Shown in pieces: positions 3,584-21,503 of a stretch of 64,000 bases of DNA. The number at the start of each line of letters is the position of its first letter. Within the stretch, counting starts at the first letter, position 1. This DNA is from an uncultured Marinicella sp. (GTDB taxonomy: Bacteria > Pseudomonadota > Gammaproteobacteria > Xanthomonadales > Marinicellaceae). The stretch spans positions 1 to 64,000 of the forward strand of contig CANNAM010000002.1 in NCBI GenBank assembly GCA_947502595.1, in the 5' to 3' direction. The notes beneath the pieces are model-generated. The model was not told the DNA's origin. It was given only the letters and a program-made list of their open reading frames with translations, and did no database searches. The position numbers and the translations under genes are program-made.

Positions 3584-4972
3584 TTATTCAAAGCCATTGA
3601 TAAAGATTAAATCTACATTGGCTTCAAAAGCACCGATGTCTCGTAGGGTATTTTCTATTGGGAAGCCACGTTGGTCTAGGGTGGTGGCGGTCATAACATC
3701 GGCAGCATCTAAGGCTTCACTGCCCACCAGCAAGGCATGTGTCAGAACACAGCTGCCATCTGCCAACGGTATCACACAACCATTGTCTTCAAGGTTAGCT
3801 ATGGTAGATGTTGTGAGGTTATTGTCCATGGTTAGCAGACAGTTTTGGTTGTCTTGGTCCGATATGTTATGACTGCCTGCAAAGGATGGTTGATTGCTCG
3901 AGCCAGTGGATATAAAACAGTCTGCACCATTGGCAAAGAATGAAGTGTTACCACTGAATAAAGAGTTATTGACGGTGGTCAGAAAACTTGAACTGTTTAA
4001 TGCACCGCCTAATTGTCCACTGGAATTGTCAATAAAGGTGCTGTTGTTGATGCTGCTGAGTACTTCTCCATTGCTGATGGCGCCACCATAGCTGGCAGAA
4101 CTGTTACCTGAAAAAGTGGTATTTACAATTTGATTGAGCATTTCATTGGTGTAAATCGCGCCTCCACTTGAATCGGCATGGTTACTGATAAAACTGCTGT
4201 CCTCAATTAAAGTGATCACACCTCTGCTGTAAATTGCACCACCTTCTCGGTCTGTGGTGTTATTGTCTAAAAACAGGCTGTTTTTTATCAGTGGAATGCT
4301 GGTATTGAAACTAGTATAAATGGCGCCTCCACTGCGGCTGGCTACATTGTTAACAAAGATACTGTTGGTGATAAAGCTGATGGTATCAAGGTTAAAAATA
4401 GCCGCCCCAAAATGAGATTTACCCGAACTGATGACAGTGTTTTCAAGCGACAAAACCCCATCATTCCAAATGGTGCCCCCAAAAAACTTATCAACGATGT
4501 CATTGCCATCAGTACAACCATGGCTCAAGATGATGTTTTCAAGACTCAGGCTACCAGCACCTTCAATTCTAATCAACCTAAATTCAGAAGCATCTGCGGT
4601 GTCATCACCGTTACAAAGCAGATTTTCATCTCTTTGTAGCATATGCCCCATGCCATTGAGAATAATGGTTGACGTAACATAAGGCAAACCGGTGTTGCCG
4701 TGATTTACATTAGCAGTCTCTGCAGCAACCGCCAGCGTTACATCTTGGGATAATTCAATGGTATCGGCACCATTTCCTGCCACACATTCGCCTGGTGTTG
4801 CACCTGATGCGGTGTCGGTATTTGCAGCAATTATGGCTTCAACAATTGTACAAACCCCATCATCTGCCACCATGCCATCGCTGCCATCAACGACAACAGT
4901 CGCTGCTTGGGTGATGTTGATGCTCATAAAGCAAGTGAGTATAAACAGTTTGTTATTTAAAATATTTTTCAT
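3584..4972 (-). CDS. Exported beta-helix (polymorphic-OMP-like) protein with C-terminal LIFINGFE tail
   Basis: I start at ATG 4972, which follows a strong GGGGGA ribosome-binding site and gives a clean signal peptide of 23 residues. The mature part begins with a motif common in such proteins (CTIVEAIIAAN), followed by many short repeats containing GGAIYS or GGAIYT, FxxN and NS, as in right-handed parallel beta-helix and Pmp-like surface proteins. A repeat-free end segment (LDQRGFPI...RDIGAFEAN) closes the helix. The last eight residues, LIFINGFE, match tails on unrelated exported proteins in this window. Function is unknown. Surface exposure is inferred from the fold. Confidence 0.8.
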   Translation of the reverse strand: MKNILNNKLFILTCFMSINITQAATVVVDGSDGMVADDGVCTIVEAIIAANTDTASGATPGECVAGNGADTIELSQDVTLAVAAETANVNHGNTGLPYVTSTIILNGMGHMLQRDENLLCNGDDTADASEFRLIRIEGAGSLSLENIILSHGCTDGNDIVDKFFGGTIWNDGVLSLENTVISSGKSHFGAAIFNLDTISFITNSIFVNNVASRSGGAIYTSFNTSIPLIKNSLFLDNNTTDREGGAIYSRGVITLIEDSSFISNHADSSGGAIYTNEMLNQIVNTTFSGNSSASYGGAISNGEVLSSINNSTFIDNSSGQLGGALNSSSFLTTVNNSLFSGNTSFFANGADCFISTGSSNQPSFAGSHNISDQDNQNCLLTMDNNLTTSTIANLEDNGCVIPLADGSCVLTHALLVGSEALDAADVMTATTLDQRGFPIENTLRDIGAFEANVDLIFINGFE

Positions 4973-5302
4973 ATTCCCCCATAATAGATGTATTTTGTAG
5001 AAATTATAATTCACAAGATATAAATCTTAAAGCCTGTGTATAAAAAGTATGTTCTGACTATAGTTGATTGTCGAGACGGTGACAGTTTCTAGTTTTAACT
5101 CTTTTGTAAATGATGCGTATTTTCTTGTCATTTTGGACCATAATTAGTTATTAATAACTGTCCAGTTTATTAAGGGAGTTCAGACATTTTTTAGTCTGAA
5201 TTGTTTTGCCTTATATGAGTATTTAAAACCACAGTCGATTTATCAATCGCTGATTGCTTATCTATGTTCAATTGGGTTTAAATAATATTTTATCTTTTTC
5301 AT
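4973..5302. other. AT-rich intergenic region with one hairpin
   Basis: I see no gene here. TTCAGAC at 5179-5185 pairs with GTCTGAA at 5194-5200 across an AT-rich loop. It lies about 100 bases beyond the end of the M19 gene and could help end its transcript, but no clear U-tract follows on that strand. Confidence 0.4.
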
Positions 5303-6406
5303 TTACCAAGATTCTTTAAACAACCGAACGAAATTAACACCTAATATTTTATCAATTGAAGCTGGTGATAAACCACGACGTTTCAATTCATCAGCGATAC
5401 TTGACATTTTGTGAGGGCCATTCAAACCAACTACATAGGGAGGAGGCCCTTCCCCTGGCGCAGCAACACCAGTCTCTTTACGCATGGCGTTAATTTCATT
5501 CCACATTGCCATGTTTTCAGGGCCAGTATCAAAGCCCAAAACAGGCGTATCACTGCCTATTCCAACATGCTCTACACCACAAACATTAATCGCATGTAAA
5601 ATATGCGTCATAAAAGCATCAAGAGATTGTTGTTCAAGGTCTGGTGTAAGATAACTCATCTCATAGATGCCAACCACACCCCCTTGGTTAGCGATGGCTT
5701 TAAGCAGAGAGTCGCTTTTATTCCGTTGGTGAGGGTTCACTGTGTAACAACCTGTATGTGTCATCCCGACAGGCCTTTTGTTAACTTTTAATACGTCCCA
5801 TGCAGTTTGTTCATGCGCATGAGATAAATCCACCAGCACATCTGAATCTTGCATCATTTCAACCGCATCTTCACCTAATTGGGTCAAGCCAAATGGCGGT
5901 TTTTTTGTCATGACACCAGCGCCAAAAACATTGCTGATGTTATAACCAGGTTGCATAATTCGCACACCACGCTCTGCAAAATGTTGGATGTTTTTTAAAT
6001 CATCAACCAGCATGGTGGCAGTTTCAAATGAATAAATGATACCAGTTCTTCCTGTATTGTATGCAATCATTAAGTCATCAAATGAATTGACATGCATGAG
6101 TTCTTTAGGATTGGCTGCGTAAATAGAAGGCAGAGAATCTAAGATTTCATTGCATTCATCGAAAGTGCTTTTGCTACCGCCTAATGATAATTTGAAAGCA
6201 GTTAAACCCGTTTCATGCAATTGAGATTTTGTGATTTCATCGAATGGATCACCAAACTCGGAGGTTATGACCATGTTGCCATTGATAACCATCTTTGGAG
6301 TCTGATGTAATGGGCTTTTTGGCATACATGAAGCCAAACTTAAACCGCCTAATGTTGCACAGCCAAGTAATCCACTTTTTAATAACTTTCTTCTATTGAT
6401 AGGCAT
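5303..6406 (-). CDS. M19 (renal dipeptidase) family protein, Tat-type lipoprotein, lacking the HxD motif
   Basis: The N-terminus has a twin-arginine signal (RRKLLKSG) and a lipobox-like LASC, so the protein is probably exported folded and lipidated. The core matches membrane dipeptidases: the bridging-glutamate region (IYSFETATML), DLSHAHE, GMTHTGC and GIGSDTPV. The family normally has an N-terminal H-x-D that binds the first zinc. Here the aligned segment reads VINGNMVITSEFGD, with neither residue in place. At 367 residues it has the usual length, so this is not a truncation. It may be a single-metal enzyme or a non-catalytic relative. Confidence 0.8.
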   Translation of the reverse strand: MPINRRKLLKSGLLGCATLGGLSLASCMPKSPLHQTPKMVINGNMVITSEFGDPFDEITKSQLHETGLTAFKLSLGGSKSTFDECNEILDSLPSIYAANPKELMHVNSFDDLMIAYNTGRTGIIYSFETATMLVDDLKNIQHFAERGVRIMQPGYNISNVFGAGVMTKKPPFGLTQLGEDAVEMMQDSDVLVDLSHAHEQTAWDVLKVNKRPVGMTHTGCYTVNPHQRNKSDSLLKAIANQGGVVGIYEMSYLTPDLEQQSLDAFMTHILHAINVCGVEHVGIGSDTPVLGFDTGPENMAMWNEINAMRKETGVAAPGEGPPPYVVGLNGPHKMSSIADELKRRGLSPASIDKILGVNFVRLFKESW

Positions 6407-6651
6407 AACTTTAATTTGTGAGTTGACATTTAAAAGTATTAACGAATTTTATTTTATTTAAGTTATTAATAATTTTAATTATTATCTATAAATGGGACAC
6501 ACACTTTTCAAAGATTCCAGCTTGAGTTTTCATATTGACTTTTTGTTTTAGTTGTTTAGAAATGCTGGATGATGTATTAACGAATTTGGTTTGTTGATGA
6601 TTTAGATTGATATTCAGCGGTTTTACTTGATTGTAAACGACTTGGGTGGCT

Positions 6652-6670
6652 GCAGACAGAATCTGCTGAT
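6652..6670. repeat. REP-like palindrome, copy 2
   Basis: This is the same 19-mer as at 229-247, again exactly 22 bases beyond the stop codon of a RAYT-type transposase fragment. The flanking bases differ between copies, so the conserved part is the palindrome itself. Confidence 0.6.
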
Positions 6671-6691
6671 ATGGCCTTGGTGGTTATTTAG

Positions 6692-7015
6692 CTATTCCAA
6701 AGCTGGAATAAGCTTTAATCCTACACTGAATTTCTTGCCAGCTTGTTTACTGAAATCTTTCAGTTGATTAACAGTTCCAACCGCTGTTATTCCGATAGAT
6801 TTAAAGCCATTTAATTCAACCAAACAAGTATCAGGATTCAAATTCAAACGTTCCAGAATCGGTGATAACTCAGCTGGCATAAACCCGCGTTTATGAGCCA
6901 AAATAACTCGCCCGGTTAAATCCACCAAATCAAGGTAAGCGGATAAGGAATAAGGCAAATCATCCTCACCTTTGCCAAATGCCAAAAGCAAGGTAGATAC
7001 TCTGTATAACATCAA
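6692..7015 (-). pseudogene. C-terminal fragment of a RAYT-type transposase
   Basis: The fragment aligns residue for residue with the C-terminal third of the remnant at 269-1347: STLLLAFGKGEDDLPYSLSA, LDLVDLTGR, HKRGF, NPDTCLVELNGFKSIG, then AVGTVNQLKDFSKQ and PALE. It has no HUH domain and no credible start. The missing 5' part ends near the IS110-family element, and no matching N-terminal half is found on the far side of it, so the loss is more than a simple insertion. It preserves the undisrupted GFKSIGITAVGT junction, which shows what the other copy lost. Confidence 0.8.
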
Positions 7016-7046
7016 GCACCATTTTGATTTTTCGCATTAATTTCAA

Positions 7047-8036
7047 TCAAGTTGAACTAACTCGGTAAAACCTTTGTGAACCAAAGTTGCTGTTTTGTTT
7101 GCACATGGAATGAATACACATCAATAGCTTCCGCATGATGGCACATATGGCTTGTTTTTTTGCCAAGTGATTGTCGTTAATCAGGTGCTGATAGTACGCA
7201 GAGACATTGATGTTATGGTGCGCCATCCTCAATGCAGTCATGTACAGTGCATCTCTGATGTATTTGTTACCAGTTTTGCTGATTCTTGATTTTCTGTTGA
7301 TTGAAGATCCAGACTGCACAATGGTTGGGTTCAAACCCGCATGAGCAACCAGTTGTTTGGATGTCATGTTGGGGTCTAACAGCGCCAGTTCGCCTATGAG
7401 TTTGATTGCTGTTTTATCTGCGATGCCATTGATGGCAATCAATCGTTCATACATGGCTTTGGCAACATCACAATCTGAGATGATTTGAATGGTGTGATTA
7501 ACCAGTTGATCAATTTGTTCTTTCAATTGCTTTAAACTTTGATTCATGTTTTCAATGATGAACTCAGGTGTGAAGTCTGTGGATTGATAAGCATGAAGCT
7601 GATTTTTAAGTTTGGTTTGTGCTTTGATTTGTTGGCTCAAGTGCCTGCTACAGCTGCGTATGGCAAACAAAGCCTCCTCTGGAGCCTGCCACTCTTCAAA
7701 CTCCATTCTTAAAGTGAATTGAGCCAATAAATAGGCATCAGTTTGGTCGGTTTTAGACTTTTGCATTAATACTTTAGAGAAGTTATGAGCAACCCTCGGG
7801 TTAATCACCATCAGCTTTATTTTAGGCTGTTTGTCCAGTGCCAATGCCAAGTCCAAATGATAATGACCTGTCGTTTCAAGGCAGACATGAGACACCTTGC
7901 GTTTTGACAAACACTTGATGAACTTTTTGTGACCAGCTGAATCGTTTTCAAACTGTAGACTCTGAGAATCCTTACCATTCAAAACAATCACAACATCAAA
8001 AGTATTTTTACTTACATCGACACCACAAACATTCAT
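7047..8036 (-). CDS. IS110-family transposase (DEDD recombinase)
   Basis: This 329-residue protein has the N-terminal RuvC-like DEDD domain: GVDVSKNTFDV, LETTGHYH and KSKTDQTDAYLLA supply the acidic residues. A central coiled segment follows, then the C-terminal Tnp20 domain with LIAINGI, HAGLNP and the serine-containing block SGSSINRKSRISKTGN. I start at ATG 8036 behind GGAG, giving MNVCGVD; starting further upstream would add only MVILEFV. Both domains look intact, so the element may be active. IS110 enzymes use a bridge RNA to choose their target. Confidence 0.92.
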   Translation of the reverse strand: MNVCGVDVSKNTFDVVIVLNGKDSQSLQFENDSAGHKKFIKCLSKRKVSHVCLETTGHYHLDLALALDKQPKIKLMVINPRVAHNFSKVLMQKSKTDQTDAYLLAQFTLRMEFEEWQAPEEALFAIRSCSRHLSQQIKAQTKLKNQLHAYQSTDFTPEFIIENMNQSLKQLKEQIDQLVNHTIQIISDCDVAKAMYERLIAINGIADKTAIKLIGELALLDPNMTSKQLVAHAGLNPTIVQSGSSINRKSRISKTGNKYIRDALYMTALRMAHHNINVSAYYQHLINDNHLAKKQAICAIMRKLLMCIHSMCKQNSNFGSQRFYRVSST

Positions 8037-8059
8037 AACAAACTCCAAAATTACCAATC

Positions 8060-8255
8060 ATTCACTTATAATAAATATCAGGTTTCCCGACCCTGTCACC
8101 TTGCTAATCGACCTTGTAGATTCAGGCTCAGGAACTTGTTCGAGGCCTCGGATACTCCACGATTTGGACAAAGAGGGCGGGAGGCCTATCTACGTACAAG
8201 CTCACAATTGTGGCTTAAGGTTGGGGCGACCTTCCCGACATTTCCCTAATAATAC
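8060..8255 (-). ncRNA. Candidate bridge RNA region of the IS110-family element
   Basis: This non-coding segment lies upstream of the transposase start and is richer in GC and in inverted repeats than its surroundings. CGAGGCCTCG at 8141-8150 is a perfect palindrome, and TTCCCGAC occurs in direct repeat at 8084-8091 and 8232-8239. In characterised IS110-group elements the upstream end is transcribed into a bridge RNA with target-binding and donor-binding loops. Position, size and structure fit, but I have not folded it or matched loops to flanks. The boundaries are approximate. Confidence 0.5.
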
Positions 8256-8319
8256 AACCAAACCAGATTAGTTATATTAATTTGGTGATTGAATTATTTA
8301 AAGAATGGGTAGCATACAA

Positions 8320-8346
8320 GGTTGGGCTAAGCTCCGCGCAGCCCAA
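8320..8346. repeat. GTTGGGC...GCCCAAC palindromic repeat
   Basis: GGTTGGGCT and AGCCCAAC form an inverted repeat around a CG-rich centre. Related copies are at 8456-8486 and 13370-13400. Similar GTTGGGCTTCGC-type repeats are scattered through many proteobacterial genomes. Confidence 0.6.
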
Positions 8347-8455
8347 CATCAAACCTTCAGTCACACCAAAATATTCAATAAAAAAAACAGCTATAAAATT
8401 TAAGAAATATAGATCTCTTTCGAAATAAACAGCATCATCAAATCAACCACCTATT

Positions 8456-8486
8456 GTTGGGCTTCGCAAGCTCAGCGCCAACCTAC
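8456..8486. repeat. GTTGGGC palindromic repeat, variant copy
   Basis: It starts GTTGGGCTTCGC and ends GCCAACCTAC, matching the copy at 13370-13400 at both ends with a variant centre. Confidence 0.6.
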
Positions 8487-8589
8487 ATTTTTTAAAATAT
8501 TCGCCGAAATTTTGGTTATTGGATAATTGGCTTCCATAGCCCCAATGACCAGCCCAATAAACCACTACCGCTTGTAAAGAGAGTCTTTT

Positions 8590-8615
8590 CATCATGAAAG
8601 CATACTTTCATGATG
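8590..8615. repeat. Perfect 11-bp inverted repeat (hairpin)
   Basis: CATCATGAAAG at 8590-8600 pairs perfectly with CTTTCATGATG at 8605-8615 around a four-base loop, CATA. It lies about 200 bases upstream of trxC and has no U-tract, so it is more likely an operator or mobile palindrome than a terminator. Confidence 0.6.
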
Positions 8616-8811
8616 TTGCTTGGCGAATTCAGTTGGTAGCAGCATGCTGTGGTAATGACAGGGCTCTTTTTATGTATTTGGTAGGTATCTTTTGTTTAGG
8701 CACCATTTATTTAGGCAACAATGCTCAAGTCGGCGTCCACTTGAAATCAGGCGCTGACAAGCCCATATTGAAAGCTTATTAAGTAAAGACTTTTCACTTT
8801 AAGGTTTAATT

Positions 8812-9258: not shown

Positions 9259-9338
9259 TCAGGTAAATACACCCTGAAAAGTGTTTGGTTACAAAGTGCT
9301 TGGTTACAAAATGATTGGCCAGGTTTTTACTGCAGTTG

Positions 9339-9764
9339 CTATTCAAAACCATCTTTAAAAATCAAAAGCTGATTAATCCAATCACGAATTAAGGCTTGGT
9401 CATTGAGGCTCAAAGGTGGTGCATCGCGAGGCATGCGGTTGCCTGATAATTGGTTGCTGCAGTTTATTTTAAAGAACAGATAACTCAGGCTGACCAATCC
9501 GGGTTCAACTCGATTTAATTCCGGGATTTGGAAACTGGGAACCGCTACTGTGTCCTGCTCACCCAGGGTTAAGTCCATGAAGGCAATCGGATCAGGCGGA
9601 CCGTGACAGGCGATACAGTGGTTATCAAATATCGGTTGTATGTCATGATCGATGGTTACATTTGGTGCTGCAACAATGGCACTCAGATCATCACAGCCGC
9701 TGATGCCAGCGATGCTCGAATCAGCCAATAAAAACCCTACCAATAACAACCATACATGTCGCAT
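9339..9764 (-). CDS. Small exported c-type cytochrome-like protein with LIFKDGFE tail
   Basis: The 141-residue protein has a signal peptide (about residues 1-19) and a single haem-binding motif CIACH at residues 50-54, preceded by IQPIFDNHC as in planctomycete-type cytochrome c domains. A later GNRMPRDAPPLS supplies a plausible axial methionine. It ends LIFKDGFE, the tail shared with other exported proteins here. Its ATG overlaps the stop of the DUF1501 gene by one base (TAATG), so it is translationally coupled. It may carry electrons for, or anchor, the DUF1501/DUF1800 products, but that is inference. Confidence 0.82.
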   Translation of the reverse strand: MRHVWLLLVGFLLADSSIAGISGCDDLSAIVAAPNVTIDHDIQPIFDNHCIACHGPPDPIAFMDLTLGEQDTVAVPSFQIPELNRVEPGLVSLSYLFFKINCSNQLSGNRMPRDAPPLSLNDQALIRDWINQLLIFKDGFE

Positions 9765-11149
9765 TAGGTGATATTCATAAAACCCAAGTCACTGCTGTTA
9801 AAACGGCCGATATTGGGCAAAATGTCAGGAATCTGACTGATACCCACACCAAACCATTGGGCAATGGTGGCCACATATTCATCCACGGCGGTGGTTGGGA
9901 TACAACGACCGTGATCACTGACGGAATCAATACTGCCCGGTTCGATGATGGGCATATCACCGTAAAAATCACCGCCATTTACCGCACCACCCATGACAAT
10001 ATGACTGGCACCCCAGCCATGATCTGAACCCTGACCATTGGACACCCAGGTGCGAGAAAAGTCTGAAGCAGTAAACAATGTCACTTGGTCTTCAACCCCC
10101 AATTCGGCCATGGCTGCTTGAAATGCCGTTAGCGCACCATCAACATTTTGCATACCGATGGCATGGTCATTGAGGTGGTTGTCATGGTTATCAAAACCAC
10201 TTAAGCGGCAGAAGAACACCTGCCGATTCATACTTAAATCACTTTGGACCGAGATCATGCGTGCCACCATCTCAAGCTGTTCTGACAATGTATTCCTGCC
10301 TTGTTGTGGTGGAAAAGTCGTGCTCAAAGGATTGGCATTGTCTAAAGCCACTGAAATCACGCCGTCTAAATCCAGTGAACGTCGAAAAATATCTGCATAC
10401 CCTTGTTTAAAAAGATTGGTCTGAGGTTCGTTCAGCAGTGCATTGATTGCAGCTAATCGTGCTGTACCTGCTCCCCACTGCACATCATTTAAACTTAAAC
10501 TGCCTTGATTGGTCATGTGGTATTGATTGATAATTTCACCCACTTGCAACTGATTACTGCCTGAAAGTGAAATGTTCATGGACAAGTCATTACCGCTGTT
10601 CATGGAACTGTGCAACAAATCGGCAATCCGGCCAGACCAACCAGATAATGAGGCCTTGTCAGCCACCGATGTTTGCCACTGAATTTGCTGATCTAAATGA
10701 GAAAACAAATTAATTGGCACCGGTACTGACCCGTTGTTGTATTCTGCTTGATTAATCGGGTATGCCAAGGAACCGACATTACTCACTACAGCCACCCTAT
10801 TTTGATCAAATAAACTTTGAATACCGGTTAAATTAGGGTGTAAGCCCCAATTACGACCACCGTTATTGGCTGGAGAAATGGCCAATAAACCAGTGCGATC
10901 CAAGGCCAAATCACCACGAACCTGCGCATAGGCGTTGTGTTCTGCCACACCTCTTGGTACCACCATATTGGCAGAATCATTCCCACCATCTAAGAAAACA
11001 CAGACCAAAGCTTTATAGCCAGTGCCCCGAGTACCGCTGTTATTCAACGCAGCCGCCTGAGCCAGTTGTAATACACCACCGGCAGACAACAACCCTCCGG
11101 TAGCCAAAGCGGTGCACATGGATCGCTGTAAAAAATCTCTTCTTTTCAT
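9764..11149 (-). CDS. DUF1501 family protein, Tat-exported
   Basis: The 461-residue protein starts with a twin-arginine signal (MKRRDFLQRS). It has the family pattern of a sulfatase/alkaline-phosphatase-like fold: VCVFLDGGNDSANMVVPRG near the mature N-terminus, WGLHPNL, GWSGRIADLL, DNHDNHLNDH, TASDFSRTW and HGWGASHIVMGG. DUF1501 genes typically neighbour DUF1800 genes, as here, with DUF1800 upstream at a gap of about 147 bases. The biochemical role is unknown. The cytochrome-like gene follows with a one-base overlap. Confidence 0.9.
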   Translation of the reverse strand: MKRRDFLQRSMCTALATGGLLSAGGVLQLAQAAALNNSGTRGTGYKALVCVFLDGGNDSANMVVPRGVAEHNAYAQVRGDLALDRTGLLAISPANNGGRNWGLHPNLTGIQSLFDQNRVAVVSNVGSLAYPINQAEYNNGSVPVPINLFSHLDQQIQWQTSVADKASLSGWSGRIADLLHSSMNSGNDLSMNISLSGSNQLQVGEIINQYHMTNQGSLSLNDVQWGAGTARLAAINALLNEPQTNLFKQGYADIFRRSLDLDGVISVALDNANPLSTTFPPQQGRNTLSEQLEMVARMISVQSDLSMNRQVFFCRLSGFDNHDNHLNDHAIGMQNVDGALTAFQAAMAELGVEDQVTLFTASDFSRTWVSNGQGSDHGWGASHIVMGGAVNGGDFYGDMPIIEPGSIDSVSDHGRCIPTTAVDEYVATIAQWFGVGISQIPDILPNIGRFNSSDLGFMNIT

Positions 11150-11295
11150 CTTATAACTCCTAGCCCGAATATTTCATGTAAGAATGGAATTTAGGGATAA
11201 AACCATTCAGTTAAACACTGTACTCAGAATTTGTTTAAATTTATGAAACATATATTAATATTACTTATTTTTATGGGTTACGCGAAATGTTCGGG
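11150..11295. other. Short gap between the DUF1800 and DUF1501 genes
   Basis: The gap is AT-rich and has no gene. The sequence does not show whether DUF1501 has its own promoter or is read through from DUF1800. Confidence 0.35.
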
Positions 11296-12972
11296 CTAAC
11301 GTTGCACCACAAAATCCGGTGATAACACCAGAACATAGATTAAGGAAGCCAGCCGGGTAATTGCAGGTTCCTGATTGATCTCAGTCAATAAATTCATACC
11401 CACAGCTCTGGTCTGGGTCGACATTTGTCCGGAAAACAGCAACAAATCCAAGTGATCTAATAATGCCGCCGGGGTATCAATCAACAGCAGCTCTCGCTGT
11501 AACTGCAAGCGTGGCATATTTTCATTCCAATGGGTCACCAAGTGATGTCCCCGGTTAATGGCTTCATTCATTTCATTGGCGACACTGATGACAGTGGTTT
11601 CACTGGTAATCTGAAATTCTGGTGACACCAGACCTTGGTCACGAACAGGTCCGGGCAATTGAAACCCTGGTGTAAAGAAATTGAACACCGAAGGAGCGCC
11701 CAAAGGCCGTTGTAAATAACCATATTCAGGGTTCCAGTTACCGTAACGACCAGTGGGACTGCGCGCTTCAAAAGCGCGCAGTAAATTGAGATAACGTAAC
11801 AGCGGCTCTTTTAATTTTCCGTATGCAGGATCAGTGAGGTGACTCGGATTACGCGCCTCATCGTCAGTTAAAATGGCCCGAATAACCGCTGCCAAATCAC
11901 CCCGCACACCGGCGCCATTGTCCACAAAGACTTCTGCCACCCGCTGCACATAAGCCGGCGATGGGTTACTGGAGACAAATCGCTGTATCAGTTGTTTGGC
12001 TATAAACGGTGGTACATTGGTGTGATTAAAAATGTTGTCCAATGCCGCAGTCAAATCTTGGTAGGCAGTTTGTCCGGCTGGAATTTGAACATTATTTAAC
12101 AGGGTTTTGGCACCGATGTCATGATAATTTTCAAAGGGTTCCATTGGTGCATAAGCATCAACAGTGGCTTCAGTTGGATTACACCACAACCAATTCCATT
12201 CAGGACAACCGGCATAATTCCAGCCGGTAAAAACCCGCGCAAAGTTCTCGATAGTGGTTTGATCATAGGTGGGAATGGGGTTGTCATCAAGATCCAAAAT
12301 TTCAGTACCATCTAAGTTAAGTTGATGCAAACCAATTGAAAATAACTGCAAAACTTCACGGGCATAATTCTCATCCGGCTGCGTGCCTTGTACCGGATCG
12401 GCTTTGGCATTTCGGAACATACCTAAATAAAACCCCATCATGGTATTGAGCGTCACATCTTCCAACAAGTCCCGGTAATTACCAAAGGCATTGATGGCTA
12501 ACATGTCATAGTATTTAGCCAAGCCCATGACTTCATTACCTAAACTGGCGCCATCGGACACCACAAATATTTCCGACCAGGCAAAAGCCATGCGTTGGCG
12601 TAACTGATCAGGACCTTCTGCCGAGTTAAGAAACCATGATTCCATCCTTGAATTTTGATACAAAGGCCATTCGGGGTTGTTCAAAATGGCTTGCATACAG
12701 GGTTCTTGCAAAGTAGCCGGTTGATTGATTTGTTCAGTTATCCACTGATCCACACCCAGCGCTTGTAAGCGACGAATTTCAGACAACTTGGCTCCATAGG
12801 TGGCCTGATACAACAAGCGAGCAGCCGCTTGATCAGTGAGTAAGGAATTACTCGGGGCGGCCGGATACAGGTTCTCTACACCCGATTTAAAAATACTGTC
12901 CGAGGTGCAATAAGCGCCAACACCTTGGCACCAAATCAATACCAATACAAACCCACAAGTTCGGCTTAACAT
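11296..12972 (-). CDS. DUF1800 family protein, exported, with an N-terminal SIFKSGVE segment
   Basis: I start at ATG 12972; the codon six bases upstream is only TTG. A signal peptide of about 20 residues precedes YCTSDSIFKSGVENLYPAAP, so residues 26-33 (SIFKSGVE) sit at the mature N-terminus and resemble the I-F-x-x-G-F-E tails of other exported proteins here. The body has DUF1800 features: AARLLYQATYGAKLSEI, RQRMAFAWSEIFVVSD, YYDMLAINAFGNYRDLLEDV, YAREVLQLFSIGL and FARVFTGWNY. The family is paired with DUF1501 across many bacteria, and its function is unknown. Confidence 0.9.
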   Translation of the reverse strand: MLSRTCGFVLVLIWCQGVGAYCTSDSIFKSGVENLYPAAPSNSLLTDQAAARLLYQATYGAKLSEIRRLQALGVDQWITEQINQPATLQEPCMQAILNNPEWPLYQNSRMESWFLNSAEGPDQLRQRMAFAWSEIFVVSDGASLGNEVMGLAKYYDMLAINAFGNYRDLLEDVTLNTMMGFYLGMFRNAKADPVQGTQPDENYAREVLQLFSIGLHQLNLDGTEILDLDDNPIPTYDQTTIENFARVFTGWNYAGCPEWNWLWCNPTEATVDAYAPMEPFENYHDIGAKTLLNNVQIPAGQTAYQDLTAALDNIFNHTNVPPFIAKQLIQRFVSSNPSPAYVQRVAEVFVDNGAGVRGDLAAVIRAILTDDEARNPSHLTDPAYGKLKEPLLRYLNLLRAFEARSPTGRYGNWNPEYGYLQRPLGAPSVFNFFTPGFQLPGPVRDQGLVSPEFQITSETTVISVANEMNEAINRGHHLVTHWNENMPRLQLQRELLLIDTPAALLDHLDLLLFSGQMSTQTRAVGMNLLTEINQEPAITRLASLIYVLVLSPDFVVQR

Positions 12973-13246
12973 CTGCAATATTCCATACTGTTTAATAACA
13001 AGCTTTTACTATAATCAAAAGCGTATTATTTAATTCAAAATTATCTTAACTATCGGATTAACGGTCATATAAAGTGACTAAACGGTCGCAGTACAACTGA
13101 ATTGCTCCCTACAAACGCCTCCAAAGTTAAACAGCGCAATCCAACGGTTTATGGCGAGTCTAACCCTGCCTATACAGTTAAAATGATTCAGTAAATGGTG
13201 GTTTTTAGCCATGCTAATTGAATATTTCAAACCAACAACAGTTGTT

Positions 13247-14653: not shown

Positions 14654-14677
14654 GGGTGCCCCGCTCAGGAGCACCCT
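14654..14677 (-). terminator. Hairpin terminator after the VPS10-like gene
   Basis: GGGTGCCCC and GGAGCACCC form a strong stem with a short loop. Read on the minus strand it is followed by CCCTTTTGCTTTATTT. It lies about 35 bases beyond the stop of the minus-strand gene that starts at 17981. Confidence 0.7.
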
Positions 14678-14711
14678 GATTAACTTTTAAAACTCGTTCA
14701 ATACTTCACGA

Positions 14712-17700
14712 TCATTCAAAACCTCGCCCAAAGGTATAAGGTGCGCCAGCGGCTTCTAGCGCTGCTTCATAGTTTGCTAATGTATTGAAATAAGCCTTCA
14801 AATCAGCTCGAAAGGTTTTGAAATCTGTTGTCGCGATTTCAATGTTCCGTTGCTGAGTTGTTGTTGGGTTTTGAGTTGTTTGCCAATGTCCCCAGACAAC
14901 CAGTCCTACCCTTGCTCTGATGGACGGCGACGTACTTTCATCTAAACTTTGACGCACAGCATCACCATAAAGGCGTTGCTGTAGCTTGGCTAAATCCAAT
15001 TCCAAATTTTTGAGGTCTTGGAACATTTTTTCGGTCGCTTGAGGGGTTCTTAACAGCGCATTTTTCAAGTGTTTTAAGCGCTTACCCGCTTCGCTCAGTT
15101 TGCTGCCAGCGCTAGAAACTTGCCGAGACAGCTCACTGGTTTTTGCTTGAAAGGCAGCTATGGCATTAAAGTCAGCAGCTGAGCTGGAAACAGGTTTAAC
15201 TTTAAATGCTTGCGGCGCACCTACTGATTCCAGCTTTCCATCATGCGCAATATATAATGCCACATGGTAGTTACCAGGCGCTGCAAGCGGACCTTCTGCA
15301 TCACTAACCCAAGGTGGTTTGAATGCGGGTTGGGTTAAATTGATTGGGTCTGGAGCTGCTAATTTCAAATCCCAACTGACGCGATGTAAGCCTTCTTTGG
15401 CGGCACTTTTTATCCAGCGCACAGGCTGGCCGTTTGCATTGCTGACCAATAACAACACTTGCGGTTCATCTTCTCCAGATTCCTGCAACAGCTGTTGCCA
15501 TCCTGGGAAAGCAATGTTGGCATTTTTTTCTACCAAGGCTTTTTCAGAACGCTGCCGTTGCTGTTTTGCGGTTGTTGGCACAGCATTCAGATAATAGGTA
15601 AATACAGCACCAAAAGGTGGATTTTCTGACGCGAAACTGGTGGTGCCCTGTCCTGGCATGCTCTTGGCTTGCATCGGCACACTGGGCACATACCACCAAG
15701 CATCTCTGACTGGGAAAAGTTTGTTTGTTTGGTCTTTTATTGCGCTGCTGATACCTCTCAACGGCGCATAATCATCCAGCACATAGAACCCACGACCAAA
15801 GGTAGCTCCAACCAAATCATCATCTCTTTGATGCAATTCTATATCACGAAACGCAATGGTAGGCACGCCAGCATTTAACATGATCCAATTAACCCCTTTG
15901 TTGGGTGAAAAGTACAGGCCAAACTCAGTGCCAACAAATAACAGATTTTCATCAATATGGTCTTGTTTGACAACCCAAATAATCGTGTCCTTGGGCAAAT
16001 CTCCTGCAATTGACTGCCAATGGCGACCCCGATCGTTACTGATGTAAAGATAGGGTTTATAATCACCCAATTTATGCGCATCTGCTACCGCAAAAACAGT
16101 GTTTGCATTGTGACTAGATGCTTCGACATCATTGATAAAAGCCCGTTCTGGCACTTTTGGCAATGTGCTTTTTCGCCAATTTTGGCCACCGTCTTCGCTG
16201 ACATGTATCAGCCCATCATCTGAACCGGTATACAGCAAACCTTCGACTTGAGGCGATTCTGAAATGGCTGTAAGTGTTGCATATTTAGACATGGCACTGT
16301 TGTCATAAAGTGCATCAACACTCCAAACACGTTTATCCATGGTTGCCAGCTCATAACGATTGGTGTTGGTGGTTAAATCCTGACTGATGGCAGTCCATGA
16401 ATTGCCTTGGTCCTCACTTTTCCAGACCCTTTGTGAGGCAAAATAAACACGTTTGTTATTGTGCGGACTCACTTCAATGGGGCTGTCCCAATTCCAGCGT
16501 TCGGGCGGCTCATTCGGTTCTGCTTGGGGCTGGATGTTGATCACTTCATCAGTGCGGCGATCAAGTCGGTACAAAGTGCCTTGTTGAATTTGCAGGTAAG
16601 CAATGTTGGGATCTTTTGGGTCAAAAACCGCATCAGATCCATCTGCACCCAGAGGCACATACCAGTCTTGATTGCGTACACCTTCGGTATTCATTGTTCT
16701 GGAAGGTCCAATTAAAGTACCTAAATCTTGAGTACCCCCGACGATGTTATAAAAAGGTTCCGAATTATCCAAATCAAGTTTGTAGAACTGCGAAATGGGT
16801 AAGTTCGGAAAAAGCCGCCAAGTGGTGCCTTCATCAAAGCTCTCGTACAATCCACCATCGGTGCCTGAAATCAAATGCCTGCCATCCTCTGGATTAATCC
16901 ACAAGGCGTGATTATCACTGTGCTTTTCACTTCCATTACCCAAATAATCAAAGGTTTTTCCGCCATCCCGCGAGACGTGATAGAACACATCCATTTGGTA
17001 AATAAGATCGGCATTTTGGGGTGACACTACAATTTCTTGGTAGTAATGTGGGCCGGTTCCTCCTGATATATAGCTGTTTCTTTTTTCCCAACTCTCGCCT
17101 TTATTCGTTGACCGATAAAAACCTTTTTCCTCATCATTGGCTTCAATGGTTGCATAAACCAGATTGGGGTTTGCGGGAGTAACAGCCAACCCTATCTTGC
17201 CCATATCACCTTTTGGTAGGCCCGTTTTGACTTGCTGCCATGAATCACCGTTATCAGTTGACTTGTAGATACCAGAATTGGGACCACCGGCTATAAATGA
17301 CCATGTTTTTCTTTGGCGTTGATAAGTTGCTGCATAAATGACATCAGGATTGGATGGATCAAATACTGTATCGGTAACACCGGTATTTTCGTCAATTTTG
17401 AGCACCGATTGCCAAGTTGTTCCACCATCTGTGGTTTTATACAGGCCACGCTCACCACCTGCAGACCAAAGCGGTCCTTCAGCAGCCACAAACACCACAT
17501 CGCTGTTTCTTGGGTCAACTAAAATTTTGCCAATGTGTTCGGATTGTTTCAGGCCCATGGCCTGCCACGTCTTACCACCATCTTTACTTTTATAAACACC
17601 ATCTCCCCAAGCCACATGGCGACCACTTACATTCTCTCCAGTACCCACCCAAATAACTTCTGAATTATTAGGGTCAATGGTTACTGTACCAATGGAGTAT

Positions 17701-17981
17701 GATTTTTGGCTGTCAAAGATGGGGGTCCAAGTGGTTCCTCTGTTGGTGGTTTTCCATACACCGCCAGAGCCAACAGCAACATACCAAGTGCTTTTATCTG
17801 TATGACTAATTGCAATATCAGCAATTCGCCCACCCATCAATGCAGGACCAATACCACGTATTTGGAGCCCTGAAACAGCCTTAGCAATGGCAGCTTTGTT
17901 GCTTGTTTTTGCCACAACATTTGGGCTTAAAAAAATAACTAAAATGAATGATAATGTCAGGGCAAAGCGGATTTTGTACAT
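14712..17981 (-). CDS. Large exported VPS10/BNR-repeat (sortilin-like beta-propeller) protein
   Basis: The 1089-residue protein has a signal peptide (about 1-24) followed by many BNR/Asp-box-type repeats with the pattern S-x-D-x-G-x-T/S-W: GVWKTTNRGTTW, GVYKSKDGGKTW, GLYKTTDGGTTW, GIYKSTDNGDSW, FYRSTNKGESW and others to about residue 740. These are typical of VPS10-domain propellers annotated as WD40/YVTN-like or glycosyl hydrolase-related. The last 250 residues form a beta domain plus a helical region. No catalytic site can be assigned. It ends FGRGFE, which fits the F-x-x-G-F-E tail pattern but could be coincidence. A peptide-binding role is inferred only. Confidence 0.85.
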   Translation of the reverse strand: MYKIRFALTLSFILVIFLSPNVVAKTSNKAAIAKAVSGLQIRGIGPALMGGRIADIAISHTDKSTWYVAVGSGGVWKTTNRGTTWTPIFDSQKSYSIGTVTIDPNNSEVIWVGTGENVSGRHVAWGDGVYKSKDGGKTWQAMGLKQSEHIGKILVDPRNSDVVFVAAEGPLWSAGGERGLYKTTDGGTTWQSVLKIDENTGVTDTVFDPSNPDVIYAATYQRQRKTWSFIAGGPNSGIYKSTDNGDSWQQVKTGLPKGDMGKIGLAVTPANPNLVYATIEANDEEKGFYRSTNKGESWEKRNSYISGGTGPHYYQEIVVSPQNADLIYQMDVFYHVSRDGGKTFDYLGNGSEKHSDNHALWINPEDGRHLISGTDGGLYESFDEGTTWRLFPNLPISQFYKLDLDNSEPFYNIVGGTQDLGTLIGPSRTMNTEGVRNQDWYVPLGADGSDAVFDPKDPNIAYLQIQQGTLYRLDRRTDEVINIQPQAEPNEPPERWNWDSPIEVSPHNNKRVYFASQRVWKSEDQGNSWTAISQDLTTNTNRYELATMDKRVWSVDALYDNSAMSKYATLTAISESPQVEGLLYTGSDDGLIHVSEDGGQNWRKSTLPKVPERAFINDVEASSHNANTVFAVADAHKLGDYKPYLYISNDRGRHWQSIAGDLPKDTIIWVVKQDHIDENLLFVGTEFGLYFSPNKGVNWIMLNAGVPTIAFRDIELHQRDDDLVGATFGRGFYVLDDYAPLRGISSAIKDQTNKLFPVRDAWWYVPSVPMQAKSMPGQGTTSFASENPPFGAVFTYYLNAVPTTAKQQRQRSEKALVEKNANIAFPGWQQLLQESGEDEPQVLLLVSNANGQPVRWIKSAAKEGLHRVSWDLKLAAPDPINLTQPAFKPPWVSDAEGPLAAPGNYHVALYIAHDGKLESVGAPQAFKVKPVSSSAADFNAIAAFQAKTSELSRQVSSAGSKLSEAGKRLKHLKNALLRTPQATEKMFQDLKNLELDLAKLQQRLYGDAVRQSLDESTSPSIRARVGLVVWGHWQTTQNPTTTQQRNIEIATTDFKTFRADLKAYFNTLANYEAALEAAGAPYTFGRGFE

Positions 17982-18297
17982 GATGAAATCTCTTAAGATG
18001 GTTATGAATGTAACTTAATTAATCTGATCACAAATAGCAAGCACAAACAACTAAGGAAAAGGCTGTCATTGGATGTTATACCAGTGTTTGATTGGGTTTA
18101 GGTGGCATATTTACCAGGTAATTGATTATCTCAAATAAATTACACCTTCACCAAATTACCCACAATGGCTGCGCTTCATCTCTTTAGGCTATGGTTGGTT
18201 CGATTGATAAGCAATATAAAATAGTTGCAGCATGTAAGGGCTGAGTGCAGCTCAGACCCTTACAACTAAAACCTAAAACCTAAAACCACAGTATCTT
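17982..18297. other. Intergenic region with a long palindrome
   Basis: No gene is seen. TGTAAGGG at 18233-18240 pairs with CCCTTACA at 18257-18264, with extra pairing CTGAG/CTCAG inside. It lies about 35 bases past the stop of the second beta-helix gene and may end its transcript, though no U-run follows. A short CCTAAAA repeat lies beside it. Confidence 0.45.
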
Positions 18298-20022
18298 TTA
18301 GTTAAAATTATCTTTGAAAATCAAATCAAAATCATGGCGTTCAAGACCGCCCAAATCGTATGGACCATTCACATTTGGCACACTGTTGTCGAACGGCCTT
18401 GGTAAGCCATTGGCAGAAACATTAGACAAAACACCCATGAAACTTGAGTCACACCTGTCTACTGGAAACGAAAATTCTTGCAGCCGATAATCACCACCTG
18501 CTTGGTCTTCAAATGCAATGGCAAAAGTGTATGATCTGGGTTGGCCAATCAAGTCACCTGTAGAAGCGGACTCATTGCGATTACAATCGCCTACCGGAAA
18601 TGCGCCAAAAGTAGTCAGTTCAGCTGATGGTAATGTGTTCCCCGCATGCTCAAATATTGACCCTGAAACAAGCACTTCATGTCCATCATTGGAGGTGGTC
18701 GGATAAGACACCTCAATCACCCTTTCCATGTCTTCATTATCAACAAATGTTGTGAACGCAACTTGTGCCGAAGTTTCATCCAAATACAATACTTGTGGCG
18801 CGTTGCTATTTTTGGCTACCACATTACCTACCATGGTAAAACTGCTGTCAAACTCGAATGGCATGTGTCTGGCTCTGATGGCACTGCCAAAATTGGCACT
18901 GTTCTCTTCAATATATGTGCCTTTGATTTCTAGAGTACCACCAAATGTAGCTATTGCACCACCGCCTCCATAAGCTGGCTCGGTACTTGATACAGAATTA
19001 TTTGATACAGTAGAACAACGCACTTCTCTGTGACATTGGGCCCCAGGCTTGGTTCTTCTTATATTCACATGACCTGCAGTCGAACGAATACCACCACCTG
19101 TTATGGTTGCGCTGTTGTTATTTATTAAGGCATCCAACGCTTCCAGTCTTGACCCCCCTGACACAAAAATACCACCACCATTGGCCGCACTGTTGGATGA
19201 CACAAAAGCAGCTCCTGCATTGAATACATTGCTGTTTATATAAACCAATGAATCGTTTGATGCAGCGATACCACCACCTGATTGGCCGGCAGTGTTTAAC
19301 AGAATGCCTTGGAACAAGCCGCCACCGTATTGATAAAATTTACAACCGTTGTTTACGAACACAGCACCACCATTCATTTCGGCATCATTGAATGCCAGTT
19401 GTGATTTCCAAACAGAAACAGATCCTTGTCCATCACAAGCAATGGCACCACCATTTACGGCTGTATTGTTGCTCAGAATACTGTTGCCATATATGCTCAC
19501 CTTAGGAGCTAAAACATTGACATCAGAAGCTGGCTGGATTGCTATCGCGCCACCAACTTGATTGCTGTGGTTATGCAGTAATGAAGTATTGTTCAAGACT
19601 AAATCCCAGCTTCCAGTTAGGCTGAGCACACCGCCATTACTGTTAGAGTTACCGCCACTGATTTCTAAGTTGATCAGACTAAGTCGAGTTAAAGTTGTGG
19701 TGCTGGTGCCTTCAACAACCACAAAAATTGCGCTTGAGCCAGTGCCCGTTAATACTGTCTTGCCTGAAATTGTGGTGTCTGAACATGTGTCATAACCACC
19801 CCTAAGCGTGGTGTTACGATCAGCCAACAGCTCAAGACCGGTTAAGCTGTAATTTTTAGGCACCCTGATTTCCAATAGCTCACTGGTTGGCGCTTGGAAA
19901 CTGGCTGCCGTGATGCTGCTGTAGTCACAACTTGGGTCAGCGCCTACAGTAGCCACAATTGTTGTTCCTGCTTGACTGACAGCAGTCATAAATAATAAAC
20001 CACATAATATAATAATTTGCAT
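18298..20022 (-). CDS. Exported parallel beta-helix protein with C-terminal LIFKDNFN tail
   Basis: I start at ATG 20022 because AGGTGG lies at good spacing before it; the codon further upstream is only GTG. A signal peptide of about 19 residues (ending SQAG) is followed by Cys-containing mature sequence and many beta-helix-type repeats (GGAIAC, NGGAVFVN, GGGIAASN, NGGGIFVSGGS). The end block has ANGLPRPFDNSVP and GPYDLGGLERHD, then the tail LIFKDNFN. It resembles the protein at 3584-4972 in architecture but not in close sequence. A decayed copy of its C-terminal part lies just upstream (20225-20400). It is probably surface-exposed, with unknown function. Confidence 0.8.
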   Translation of the reverse strand: MQIIILCGLLFMTAVSQAGTTIVATVGADPSCDYSSITAASFQAPTSELLEIRVPKNYSLTGLELLADRNTTLRGGYDTCSDTTISGKTVLTGTGSSAIFVVVEGTSTTTLTRLSLINLEISGGNSNSNGGVLSLTGSWDLVLNNTSLLHNHSNQVGGAIAIQPASDVNVLAPKVSIYGNSILSNNTAVNGGAIACDGQGSVSVWKSQLAFNDAEMNGGAVFVNNGCKFYQYGGGLFQGILLNTAGQSGGGIAASNDSLVYINSNVFNAGAAFVSSNSAANGGGIFVSGGSRLEALDALINNNSATITGGGIRSTAGHVNIRRTKPGAQCHREVRCSTVSNNSVSSTEPAYGGGGAIATFGGTLEIKGTYIEENSANFGSAIRARHMPFEFDSSFTMVGNVVAKNSNAPQVLYLDETSAQVAFTTFVDNEDMERVIEVSYPTTSNDGHEVLVSGSIFEHAGNTLPSAELTTFGAFPVGDCNRNESASTGDLIGQPRSYTFAIAFEDQAGGDYRLQEFSFPVDRCDSSFMGVLSNVSANGLPRPFDNSVPNVNGPYDLGGLERHDFDLIFKDNFN

Positions 20023-20224
20023 AATTTCCACCTGAAATAGTTTATTTGTCTGTCATGGCTGATAACGCTTAAGCCACAACTCTTCTTCGTCTTTATACTG
20101 TTTCGCAAATGGACAGAAATTCATGACAACTAAAACACAATGAATTGTAAAAAGGTTCAAGCATACGCTTATGAAATCAGCCTACAACACCGATTTTTTA
20201 AGTGTAGATTGGAGTTCAAAATTT

Positions 20225-20400
20225 GAACTTTATAATCTGCGAAGACTGCTTTCAAAATAGGTACACTGGTATCAAAAGACCTTGGCAAACCATTGGCAGA
20301 GACAACAGAATGAAAGACCCTTCAATCTTGATTCACAGCTGCTAACCAATTACAGATTATGGCGAAAACTTCAACTGAACTTTGCCTTACCAGGCTCTGT
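20225..20400 (-). pseudogene. Decayed 3' fragment of a beta-helix gene paralogous to its neighbour
   Basis: On the minus strand this stretch encodes SANGLPRSFDTSVPILK, matching SANGLPRPFDNSVPNVN in the intact gene at 18298-20022. Just before it, a frameshifted stretch corresponds to CDSSFMGVLSN. No start codon and no long frame remain. It is probably the leftover end of a tandem duplicate. The limits are approximate. Confidence 0.6.
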
Positions 20401-20540
20401 AAAAGCAGTGCCTGGAAGTTTTTTGCTTAGTTAATTACAAATTTTGTGTTACTATGACTTAACTGTATGTTATCTAAAATATTTTTTATTTTCTTAAAAA
20501 CACATTATTAGATGCGATTAAAACAATAAGGGGAATTTTA

Positions 20541-21503
20541 ATGAACAATCGAACCATTGCTTTTTTACTGATCTTAGGCGGTTTAATTTTTACCACACAC
20601 GCTCAAAGCCTTGGGCGTTTTCCTTGTGTGATGCCAGGCTGTCCAGACGGTGTAGACAGTAATCCAGGCATAATAGACATGCTGGCAATAGAACGCAGCA
20701 ATATGCCTGCATCTTTGCTTGGCAAATCATTTTATCACAGTATTCCAAACACCAAAAATGGATCAGGCATAGTGTGTGGCGTCAATGCCATGTGCGCATC
20801 ATTCCCAGTTGCACAATCTGGAGATGTGATGGCATGGATAGGGTTTGATTATCAGGACGAAGATGGGGAGTTATTTATTGCCACCTCAGGCGAAGAGGCC
20901 TTCCAAGTAGATGATACGACTTACGCACTGCCGCTTTGGGAAGAAAAGCATTTCTGGATTACGGTGGATCAGAACAGTGCGCCATTGGCTATTCAACCTA
21001 GATATGCCGCAACTGACATAATAACGGGCTTTGAAGTTTATATAGTCGACTTTTTAGGGTACAAATTACCAGGCGTTGATTATTCAGCATTCCAATTTGA
21101 AATGTCAGTGAGTAGCTTAATTGTTGTTGTTGATCCTGATGAAGGAAGTATAGAAGATTTGTATATAGATTATTACGATGAAAATAATGATTATGTTGAG
21201 TCCATTGATATAAATAATGGGGATCAGATTATGACCTTTTTTCTTGGTTTAGATAAAATCTCTCCCGATACAGTCACATTTTTTTCGATTGAAGACCCCG
21301 TTACTGTAACCCAAACACCAGAGCTATTTTATGAAGAATGGTATCCCGGCACCACCTTCCCTTGCACTTATTGCGGTGTTTTGGATTTATCACAGGTTCA
21401 GTTCAAATACATATTTGAATCTATTGAAAGCTTCCCAAGAATAAACTATACAGATCCCTTACCTATTATTGATGAGATAATTTTCAGAAATAACTTTGAA
21501 TAG
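20541..21503 (+). CDS. Exported protein of unknown function with C-terminal IIFRNNFE tail
   Basis: A strong GGGGAAT ribosome-binding site precedes the ATG. The 320-residue product has a signal peptide (about 1-21, ending HAQS), a Cys-rich mature start (FPCVMPGCPDG) and a beta-rich acidic body. Further Cys pairs (CGVNAMC and TFPCTYCGV) could form disulfides. It ends IIFRNNFE, the shared tail. The body matches no family I know. The stop is followed after 26 bases by an apolipoprotein N-acyltransferase-like gene on the same strand, so the two are probably cotranscribed. Confidence 0.75.
   Translation: MNNRTIAFLLILGGLIFTTHAQSLGRFPCVMPGCPDGVDSNPGIIDMLAIERSNMPASLLGKSFYHSIPNTKNGSGIVCGVNAMCASFPVAQSGDVMAWIGFDYQDEDGELFIATSGEEAFQVDDTTYALPLWEEKHFWITVDQNSAPLAIQPRYAATDIITGFEVYIVDFLGYKLPGVDYSAFQFEMSVSSLIVVVDPDEGSIEDLYIDYYDENNDYVESIDINNGDQIMTFFLGLDKISPDTVTFFSIEDPVTVTQTPELFYEEWYPGTTFPCTYCGVLDLSQVQFKYIFESIESFPRINYTDPLPIIDEIIFRNNFE

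Follow-up and report, generated by a model that had tools for sequence, protein, structure and literature searches.

A short linear motif on exported proteins of a Marinicella genome and its co-occurrence with a second type II secretion system

The first 64,000 nucleotides of contig CANNAM010000002.1 from an uncultured Marinicella sp. (assembly GCA_947502595.1), here called the window, encode several exported proteins of unrelated structure that carry nearly the same nine residues at one end. The consensus of this motif, or tag, is approximately D-L-I-F-x-D-G-F-E, and its typical form in the host genome is D-[LVI]-I-F-x-[DN]-G-F-E. The initial annotation of the window had proposed a C-terminal tail for sorting, surface anchoring or secretion. 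Here, we describe the copies in the window, the spread of the motif among related genomes, and its co-occurrence with components of a second type II secretion system (T2SS), called T2SS-B below.

Copies of the motif in the window

The window holds the following copies and candidate copies, with endings read from the translations:

3587..3613, minus strand: C-terminal tag DLIFINGFE of the beta-helix protein 3584-5014
9342..9368, minus strand: C-terminal tag LLIFKDGFE of the small CxxCH (cytochrome c-like) protein 9339-9764
12874..12900, minus strand: degenerate motif DSIFKSGVE directly behind the signal peptide of the DUF1800 protein 11296-12978, at its mature N-terminus
14715..14738, minus strand: possible degenerate tag YTFGRGFE of the VPS10-like protein 14712-17981
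18301..18327, minus strand: C-terminal tag DLIFKDNFN of the beta-helix protein 18298-20031
21474..21500, plus strand: C-terminal tag EIIFRNNFE of the protein 20541-21503
43168..43209, plus strand: tag DVIYKNDFE followed by five residues (SVMLH), in the downstream half of a broken LamG gene

The four endings quoted in the initial annotation (3584-5014, 9339-9764 and 18298-20031 on the minus strand, 20541-21503 on the plus strand) lie where it had placed them. The first, DLIFINGFE, directly abuts a choice-of-anchor Q domain (NF041518, residues 416-465 of 476), while the protein 20541-21503 matched no Pfam or NCBIfam family. The tag of the CxxCH protein is retained in all four of its Marinicella-type homologs, two of which have one added residue (FEP, FEE). 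A fifth ending, DVIYKNDFESVMLH (open reading frame (ORF) 42793-43212, plus strand), stands 5 residues before the end of the downstream half of a LamG-domain gene (42517-43212) that is interrupted by one in-frame TAA at 42790-42792. The break looks recent, because the downstream half still ends in the tag. The VPS10-like protein had also been listed with this group. Its ending TFGRGFE keeps F-x-x-G-F-E and misses both the I and the upstream D, which makes it possibly a degenerate member of the motif, and at most a candidate.

One window copy lies at the other end of its protein. DSIFKSGVE deviates from the motif by V for the second F, and the Pfam DUF1800 match begins only at residue 54. A search of genomes with this DUF1800 protein, which is 86-87% identical to proteins of M. 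pacifica and two close records, returned six loci, four of Marinicella type and two more distant. The four Marinicella-type homologs all have a similar N-terminal stretch (IFKSGVE in three, VYKSGIE in one); in the two more distant ones, residues 1-70 contain no such stretch. The DUF1800 gene heads a row on the minus strand (9339-12978) that continues with a DUF1501 gene (with a signal like those of the twin-arginine translocation (Tat) pathway) and the small CxxCH gene, and that is conserved in four Marinicella-type relatives. Within this row, the DUF1800 protein is tagged, in degenerate form, at its N-terminus and the CxxCH protein at its C-terminus, and the DUF1501 protein is untagged.

A motif selected at the protein level

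Exactly at their ends, 4 of the 51 non-overlapping window ORFs of at least 100 residues carry the motif, whereas 2000 rounds of shuffling the 30 terminal residues of each ORF gave 0.005 on average; the 18,251 residues counted in the window contain one internal match. Across the entire genome (3.24 Mb), there were 79 matches to a loose DNA pattern and 14 to its reversed control, and 16 compared to 0 for the tight pattern I-F-x-[DN]-G-F-E-stop. The shuffled-tail and reversed-pattern controls rule out a chance origin of the endings, and the initial observation that exported proteins of unrelated structure have a tag in common is confirmed.

A larger sample was obtained by fetching stretches around all 75 loose matches outside the window and, later, around non-terminal matches as well. 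From these host-genome loci, 63 tails were read, nearly all of them on proteins with signal peptides. The search expression ([ILVM][FY]xxxF[EDN] with up to 4 further residues) fixed several positions by choice, but the free positions are also far from random: D stands two before the I in 58 tails and L, V or I next in 55, with D or N ahead of the G position in 45 and G itself in 42. The final residue of the motif is E in 52. The chain stops exactly on the motif in 50 tails and runs 1-4 residues beyond in 13. A few of the 63 may be chance matches. As the initial annotation had remarked, neither a membrane helix nor a basic cluster follows the motif in any of them.

The 30-nucleotide sequences differ among all 63 tails and third codon positions vary; therefore, selection acts on the protein and not on a DNA repeat, and a repeat or mobile element at gene ends is ruled out as the source. 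The same result bears on the suggestion that the motif has no tag function at all, being either such a copied repeat or the leftover first strand of a LamG/jelly-roll domain. Domains of this type often start with ...F-x-D-D-F-E-S-G..., which the motif resembles, and one tagged window gene does encode a LamG protein. Nevertheless, the carriers are unrelated to each other, and tags are absent or frequent by whole genome. We regard a functionless origin as extremely improbable, and the DNA differences among the tails bring it close to refuted.

Which proteins carry the motif? Among 684 ORFs of the fetched genome stretches, the strict motif lies within 12 residues of the end in 39 of 272 exported-like ORFs and in 4 of 412 others; the exported-like call is a crude hydropathy rule, and the loci were chosen around tag matches, so that these are not genome frequencies. 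Three of the four apparent exceptions have a signal peptide by eye, and the last is the LamG fragment. The signals of two tagged proteins look Tat-like by eye (L036:15466-16797, L048:4781-6064). Several folds are represented, including beta-helix, cytochrome-like, DUF1800 and subtilase-like proteins. The structure prediction of one tagged protein gave a poor model, with a pLDDT of 43. There are also small tagged exported proteins of 74-133 residues (L061, L067, L071, L084 and L116), which come from families f5, f9 and f12. L067 is from f5, and the other four show a ...GFW... stretch ahead of the tag.

The position of the motif in the chain is less uniform than a C-terminal tail would imply. 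The motif also occurs 1-14 residues before the chain end, in tandem (L032 and L096), deep within the chain (L068, L089, L050), and at the mature N-terminus, as in L018:1757-2857 (ADLIFYNGFD), L099:5629-7614 (PIFADGFE) and L121:3922-4707 (EIFVNGFE). A further protein, which opens like DUF1800 by eye, has TIFESGFD at its mature N-terminus (L104:6875-8677). The tag is thus best described as a short linear motif with a preference for chain ends. The copies away from the C-terminus argue against an enzyme that needs a free C-terminus, and the N-terminal and tandem ones make a C-terminal sortase-type tag unlikely. More generally, the motif could be a processing signal, recognized for cleavage or linkage by a protease or transpeptidase in the periplasm or at the surface, as other tags are by exosortase, rhombosortase and the sortase of the type IX secretion system (T9SS). 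Dozens of tagged cargo proteins and a patchy distribution are typical of such systems, but the tag has no membrane segment and a C-terminal sortase would leave the N-terminal, tandem and internal copies unexplained. We consider a processing signal improbable.

The motif has a narrow distribution. With its stop codon, the strict form was found in 31 of 33 genomes of the family and in 82 of 250 genomes of the order (Marinicella is assigned to Lysobacterales at NCBI), with controls near zero. In a class-wide sample of 370 genomes, 21 match the motif without a stop, two of them within the order. The 19 others have 1-2 matches each, four matches contain in-frame stops, and the reversed control matches 14 genomes; the single matches outside the order look like background. 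The motif is thus restricted to part of one gammaproteobacterial order.

Co-occurrence with a second type II secretion system

Two T2SSs were distinguished. System A is an xps-type cluster (L154), in which the ORF at the XpsC/XpsN place has no Pfam match. Xanthomonas XpsC is described with a single helix instead of a PDZ domain (PMC11981180). T2SS-B of the host genome consists of gspC-gspD-gspE-gspF beside ftsEX-like genes (L135) and a separate operon (L219) with gspG and four adjoining pilin-like or GspK-like ORFs. At L135, GspD and GspF pass the NCBIfam cut-offs, GspE falls just below (626.3 of 630.25 bits), and GspC passes Pfam PF11356 and not TIGR01713. The canonical GspG (at C5) scores 180 bits, and pseudopilins H-K are named by position and N-terminal sequence only. 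GspC of T2SS-B (GspC-B) has HR and PDZ domains, the latter with 30.7 bits in Pfam (cut-off 23.2). A profile of 23 GspC proteins matches the PDZ chains of PulC and EpsC (1e-19, 4e-18) and OutC (2e-39), and 38 GspC proteins from as many genomes align across the PDZ region. Comparison of a GspC-B model with the GspC HR (Z 12.4, rmsd 1.3, 64 aligned) and the PulC PDZ domain (Z 8.8, rmsd 2.8, 79 aligned) adds only that both domains look as expected. Near gspCDEF-B lies a gene for an exported protein of 595 residues (L135:16467-18254) that ends in SDLIFANGF, the tag minus its final E.

The relation between the motif and T2SS-B was profiled in the 250 genomes of the order. A genome was counted as motif positive with 3 or more places that match a widened pattern (without stop codon), and as GspC positive with a PF11356 score of 45 bits or more; we chose both thresholds ourselves. 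The counts for both, motif only, GspC only and neither were:

All 250 genomes: 97, 16, 14, 123
Genomes at least 95% complete (n=176): 58, 3, 6, 109
Same 176 genomes, motif cut at 5: 56, 1, 8, 111
Genus level (n=78), widened motif: 34, 3, 5, 36
Strict motif with stop, 2 or more: 59, 6, 52, 133
Strict motif with stop, 2 or more, genus level: 23, 0, 16, 39

Motif and T2SS-B components therefore co-occur. Of the 16 motif-only genomes, 13 are less than 95% complete. With stratification by family, the motif-GspC odds ratio in genomes at least 95% complete is 45 (p=5e-13). The contrast is sharp within two families in which most genomes have neither trait. In f2, both motif-bearing genomes have GspC (29 and 18 motifs) and 50 GspC-negative genomes have 0-1 motif each; in f12, all five motif-bearing genomes have GspC (17-44 motifs) and 46 GspC-negative genomes have 0-2 each. 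A second component gave the same division: canonical GspG (166-191 bits) was found in 18 of 18 genomes chosen as motif-positive and in 0 of 14 others, which have xps-type GspG only, or none in G001; one of the 14, G088, has 7 motifs. In a search of 50 genomes for GspD, all 22 with the strict, stop-terminated motif had two GspD matches above cut-off. Finally, G001, a motif-free member of the host's own family, has no match for GspD, GspC, XpsM or GspG.

The xps-type T2SS was rejected as the partner of the motif, with which it shows no association: XpsM is present in 225 of the 250 genomes, and among the genomes listed without it, 11 of 20 have 3 or more motifs.

A further test was provided by GspC-positive genomes that have no strict motif, which would be expected to carry variant tags. 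Fourteen such genomes were inspected before the widened pattern was defined. In these genomes, choice-of-anchor Q proteins frequently terminate in IFNDRFEQP, IFRDRFEEP, VFSDRFEQP and similar sequences (the IFxDRFE type), and the widened pattern gives 4-40 matches in 9 of the 14 genomes and 0-2 in the other 5. The prediction has thus mostly held. The search for these proteins yielded 30 loci. The 23 loci from GspC-positive genomes comprise 16 tag-type ends (counting the loose IYKDDFDH of G031), 3 membrane-helix ends, 1 that is neither and 3 that were not readable; the 7 from GspC-negative genomes comprise one tag (G088), one helix end (G049) and 5 that were not readable or unclear. In four choice-of-anchor Q proteins of relatives (L187, L191, L194, L202), a VP-type stretch, membrane helix and arginine cluster replace the tag: C-terminal signals have been swapped naturally on proteins that have this one domain in common.

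On balance, we lean towards a role of the motif as a portable, linear signal that recruits proteins to T2SS-B. Of the three roles first suggested for it, the phylogenetic profile favors secretion through the second type II system, with anchoring a possible outcome that is taken up below.

Several results weigh against recruitment by T2SS-B. Shared ancestry inflates the raw p-values, f2 and f12 supply most of the contrast, and there may have been few independent losses; with drafts counted in, the stratified GspC odds ratio is down to 6.3 (p=5e-6). In f8, 24 of 33 genomes without GspC retain 1-10 motifs, and three GspC-free genomes of this family with a completeness of at least 97% contain 3 or more (G082 with 4, G088 with 7, G116 with 4), G088 being also without canonical GspG. 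These motifs may reflect decay after loss of the system, genes missed in drafts, or another machine that reads them. Conversely, GspC is accompanied by fewer than 3 motifs in six of the genomes that are at least 95% complete (G031, G048, G104, G109, G229 and G246), including one motif-free, GspC-positive genome in each of f2 (G246) and f12 (G229). The motif-free genomes G086 and G097 have two or three GspD proteins above cut-off. Furthermore, the widened pattern was drawn from GspC-positive genomes and is not fully independent of the idea that it supports. Lastly, an enrichment of tag genes beside T2SS-B genes was not shown in 19 gspC/gspD-B and 13 gspG loci: tags are present in 3 of the former (L135, L137 and L140, with a second, incomplete one in L135) and in 3 of the latter (L221, L223 and L227), and further matches in L228 and L229 look spurious.

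Could the tag serve some other machine, which disappeared from the same few lineages as T2SS-B, making the association one of shared ancestry? The retention of some motifs without GspC in f8 would fit this explanation. So would the behavior of flagellin, an unrelated control: its negative raw association (p=2e-18) is strong because both traits follow families, and it weakens upon stratification (p=0.003). In near-complete genomes, however, the stratified GspC link given above is far stronger than that of flagellin (odds ratio 0.08). In addition, gspG, which is unlinked to gspC, splits 32 genomes in the same way with G088 as the sole motif-bearer on the wrong side, and variant tags turned up as predicted in the nine genomes described above. 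Shared ancestry by itself is thus a rather improbable source of the association.

Other features of the window stand apart from these comparisons. Near the tagged beta-helix gene lie an IS110-like transposase and a REP-type transposase-like ORF (7047-8057 and 413-1347, named by eye), and in the exported protein encoded at 60073-61059, a long PEPVKPEPVKP repeat precedes a region that looks cupredoxin-like by eye.

Possible mode of action and comparison with known signals

T2SS cargo folds in the periplasm before it crosses the outer membrane, and tagged proteins carry the signal peptides for Sec or Tat export that are expected of T2SS substrates; they include Sec-type and (by eye) Tat-type exports of several folds, as T2SS substrates do. 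If the motif recruits cargo to T2SS-B, the tagged protein would reach the periplasm by Sec or Tat. Once its signal peptide is removed and the chain has folded, the nine residues would remain on a flexible end, at the C-terminus in most cases and at the mature N-terminus in some. T2SS-B would then bind the tag, most likely through the GspC PDZ domain, and the pseudopilus would push the cargo out via GspD-B to the surface or the medium. The docked tag might take the shape of a short beta-strand or a tight hairpin (I-F, an x-[DN]-G turn, F-E), a hairpin being suggested because of the central [DN]-G and the indifference to the chain end. We infer the binding of the tag, the identity of the component that reads it and the transport across the outer membrane.

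The PDZ domain as reader is a guess by analogy with single cases, those of PelI and VesB. The EpsC PDZ domain is required for secretion of one substrate (PMC12369372), and the secretion signal of PelI includes a 9-residue loop that is in contact with GspC and GspD (PMC7949064). A more specific proposal, namely that docking of the tag on the GspC PDZ domain is both necessary and sufficient for outer-membrane export of dozens of unrelated proteins in this order, works from either end of the chain, and involves lineage-specific dialects (GFE/RFE) that co-evolve with the receptor, is tentative and rather doubtful. Two further points belong with the unfavorable ones above. First, PDZ-type GspC is common in the class, but the motif is at background outside the order; hence, the reader would have to be a local invention. 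Second, classical PDZ ligands need a hydrophobic, free C-terminus with its carboxylate, whereas the tag ends in E, D or N and can be internal or N-terminal. Perhaps the tag could still bind the PDZ domain as an internal hairpin.

The domain that adjoins the tag bears on a different role, that of surface retention, in which cargo leaves through T2SS-B by virtue of other features and the tag then binds a surface receptor or polysaccharide. Dependence on T2SS-B would arise only because the cargo must first get out. NCBIfam names the adjoining domain 'choice-of-anchor', the same-domain proteins of relatives (L187, L191, L194, L202) end in the helix and arginine cluster described above, and the tandem tags of L032 and L096 would suit avidity. 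Moreover, the known tag GlyGly-CTERM works alongside a separate T2SS signal (PMC13393428). On the other hand, no candidate receptor was found, though none was sought, and the tag is also present on a small cytochrome-like protein and on Tat-type proteins that have no other sign of surface attachment. Surface retention is, in our judgment, unlikely, though it deserves to be taken seriously.

How T2SSs choose their cargo is an open question. PMC12369372 and PMC7949064 state that the T2SS lacks a common linear signal and that the information is held to be structural. With a short tag common to many proteins and linked to one T2SS, direct tests of this question would become feasible, and the T2SS-B-linked tag may be a portable export label of the kind that the T2SS was thought not to have. 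If so, the secretome of such bacteria could be listed by a text search, many tag-bearing proteins of unknown function would acquire a label, and a compact export tag would be available for engineering.

Like the initial annotation, we know of no description of a tag of this form. An NCBIfam scan of ten proteins (7 of them C-terminally tagged) at E up to 5 gave no tail model, with the HMMER filters dropping most weak matches. Literature searches on spellings of the motif, CTERM tags and C-terminal motifs of Xanthomonadales turned up nothing alike, with subscription papers mostly outside their scope; one spelling (ifangfe) occurs in full texts that are unrelated by their titles. GlyGly-, PEP- and MYXO-CTERM signals have a C-terminal membrane helix followed by basic residues, which the 63 tails lack, and they are found at the C-terminus only, unlike the present motif with its N-terminal copies (L018, L099, L104, L121 and, in degenerate form, DUF1800).

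The closest likenesses are partial. GlyGly-CTERM with rhombosortase is also a short portable tag on several exported proteins and is linked with type II secretion (PMC13393428); it consists of a Gly-rich stretch, membrane helix and positive tail, is C-terminal and is cut by a rhomboid protease, whereas the new tag has none of these features and can be N-terminal. Loop 3 of PelI, a short exposed stretch of 9 residues that touches GspC and GspD (PMC7949064), and the VesB Ig-fold, which depends on the EpsC PDZ domain (PMC12369372), resemble it as T2SS determinants read through GspC. Those determinants are parts of folded domains in single substrates, however, and the new tag is one linear consensus at the chain ends of dozens of proteins. 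The endings that replace the tag on choice-of-anchor Q proteins of some relatives, which we take to be sorting signals of the IPTL/VP family, share the adjoining domain and differ in having a membrane helix and Arg cluster, placed after further domains in L187 and L191, instead of I-F-x-D-G-F-E. PEP-CTERM and MYXO-CTERM are C-terminal signals with a membrane helix that are recognized in the inner membrane. MYXO-CTERM with myxosortase is likewise reported to have dozens of tagged cargo proteins per genome, and PEP-CTERM with exosortase to have been found by phylogenetic profiling. Finally, the C-terminal domain of the T9SS of Bacteroidota also targets exports across the outer membrane, but it is a folded domain of about 70-100 residues at the C-terminus, compared to nine residues at either end for the new tag.

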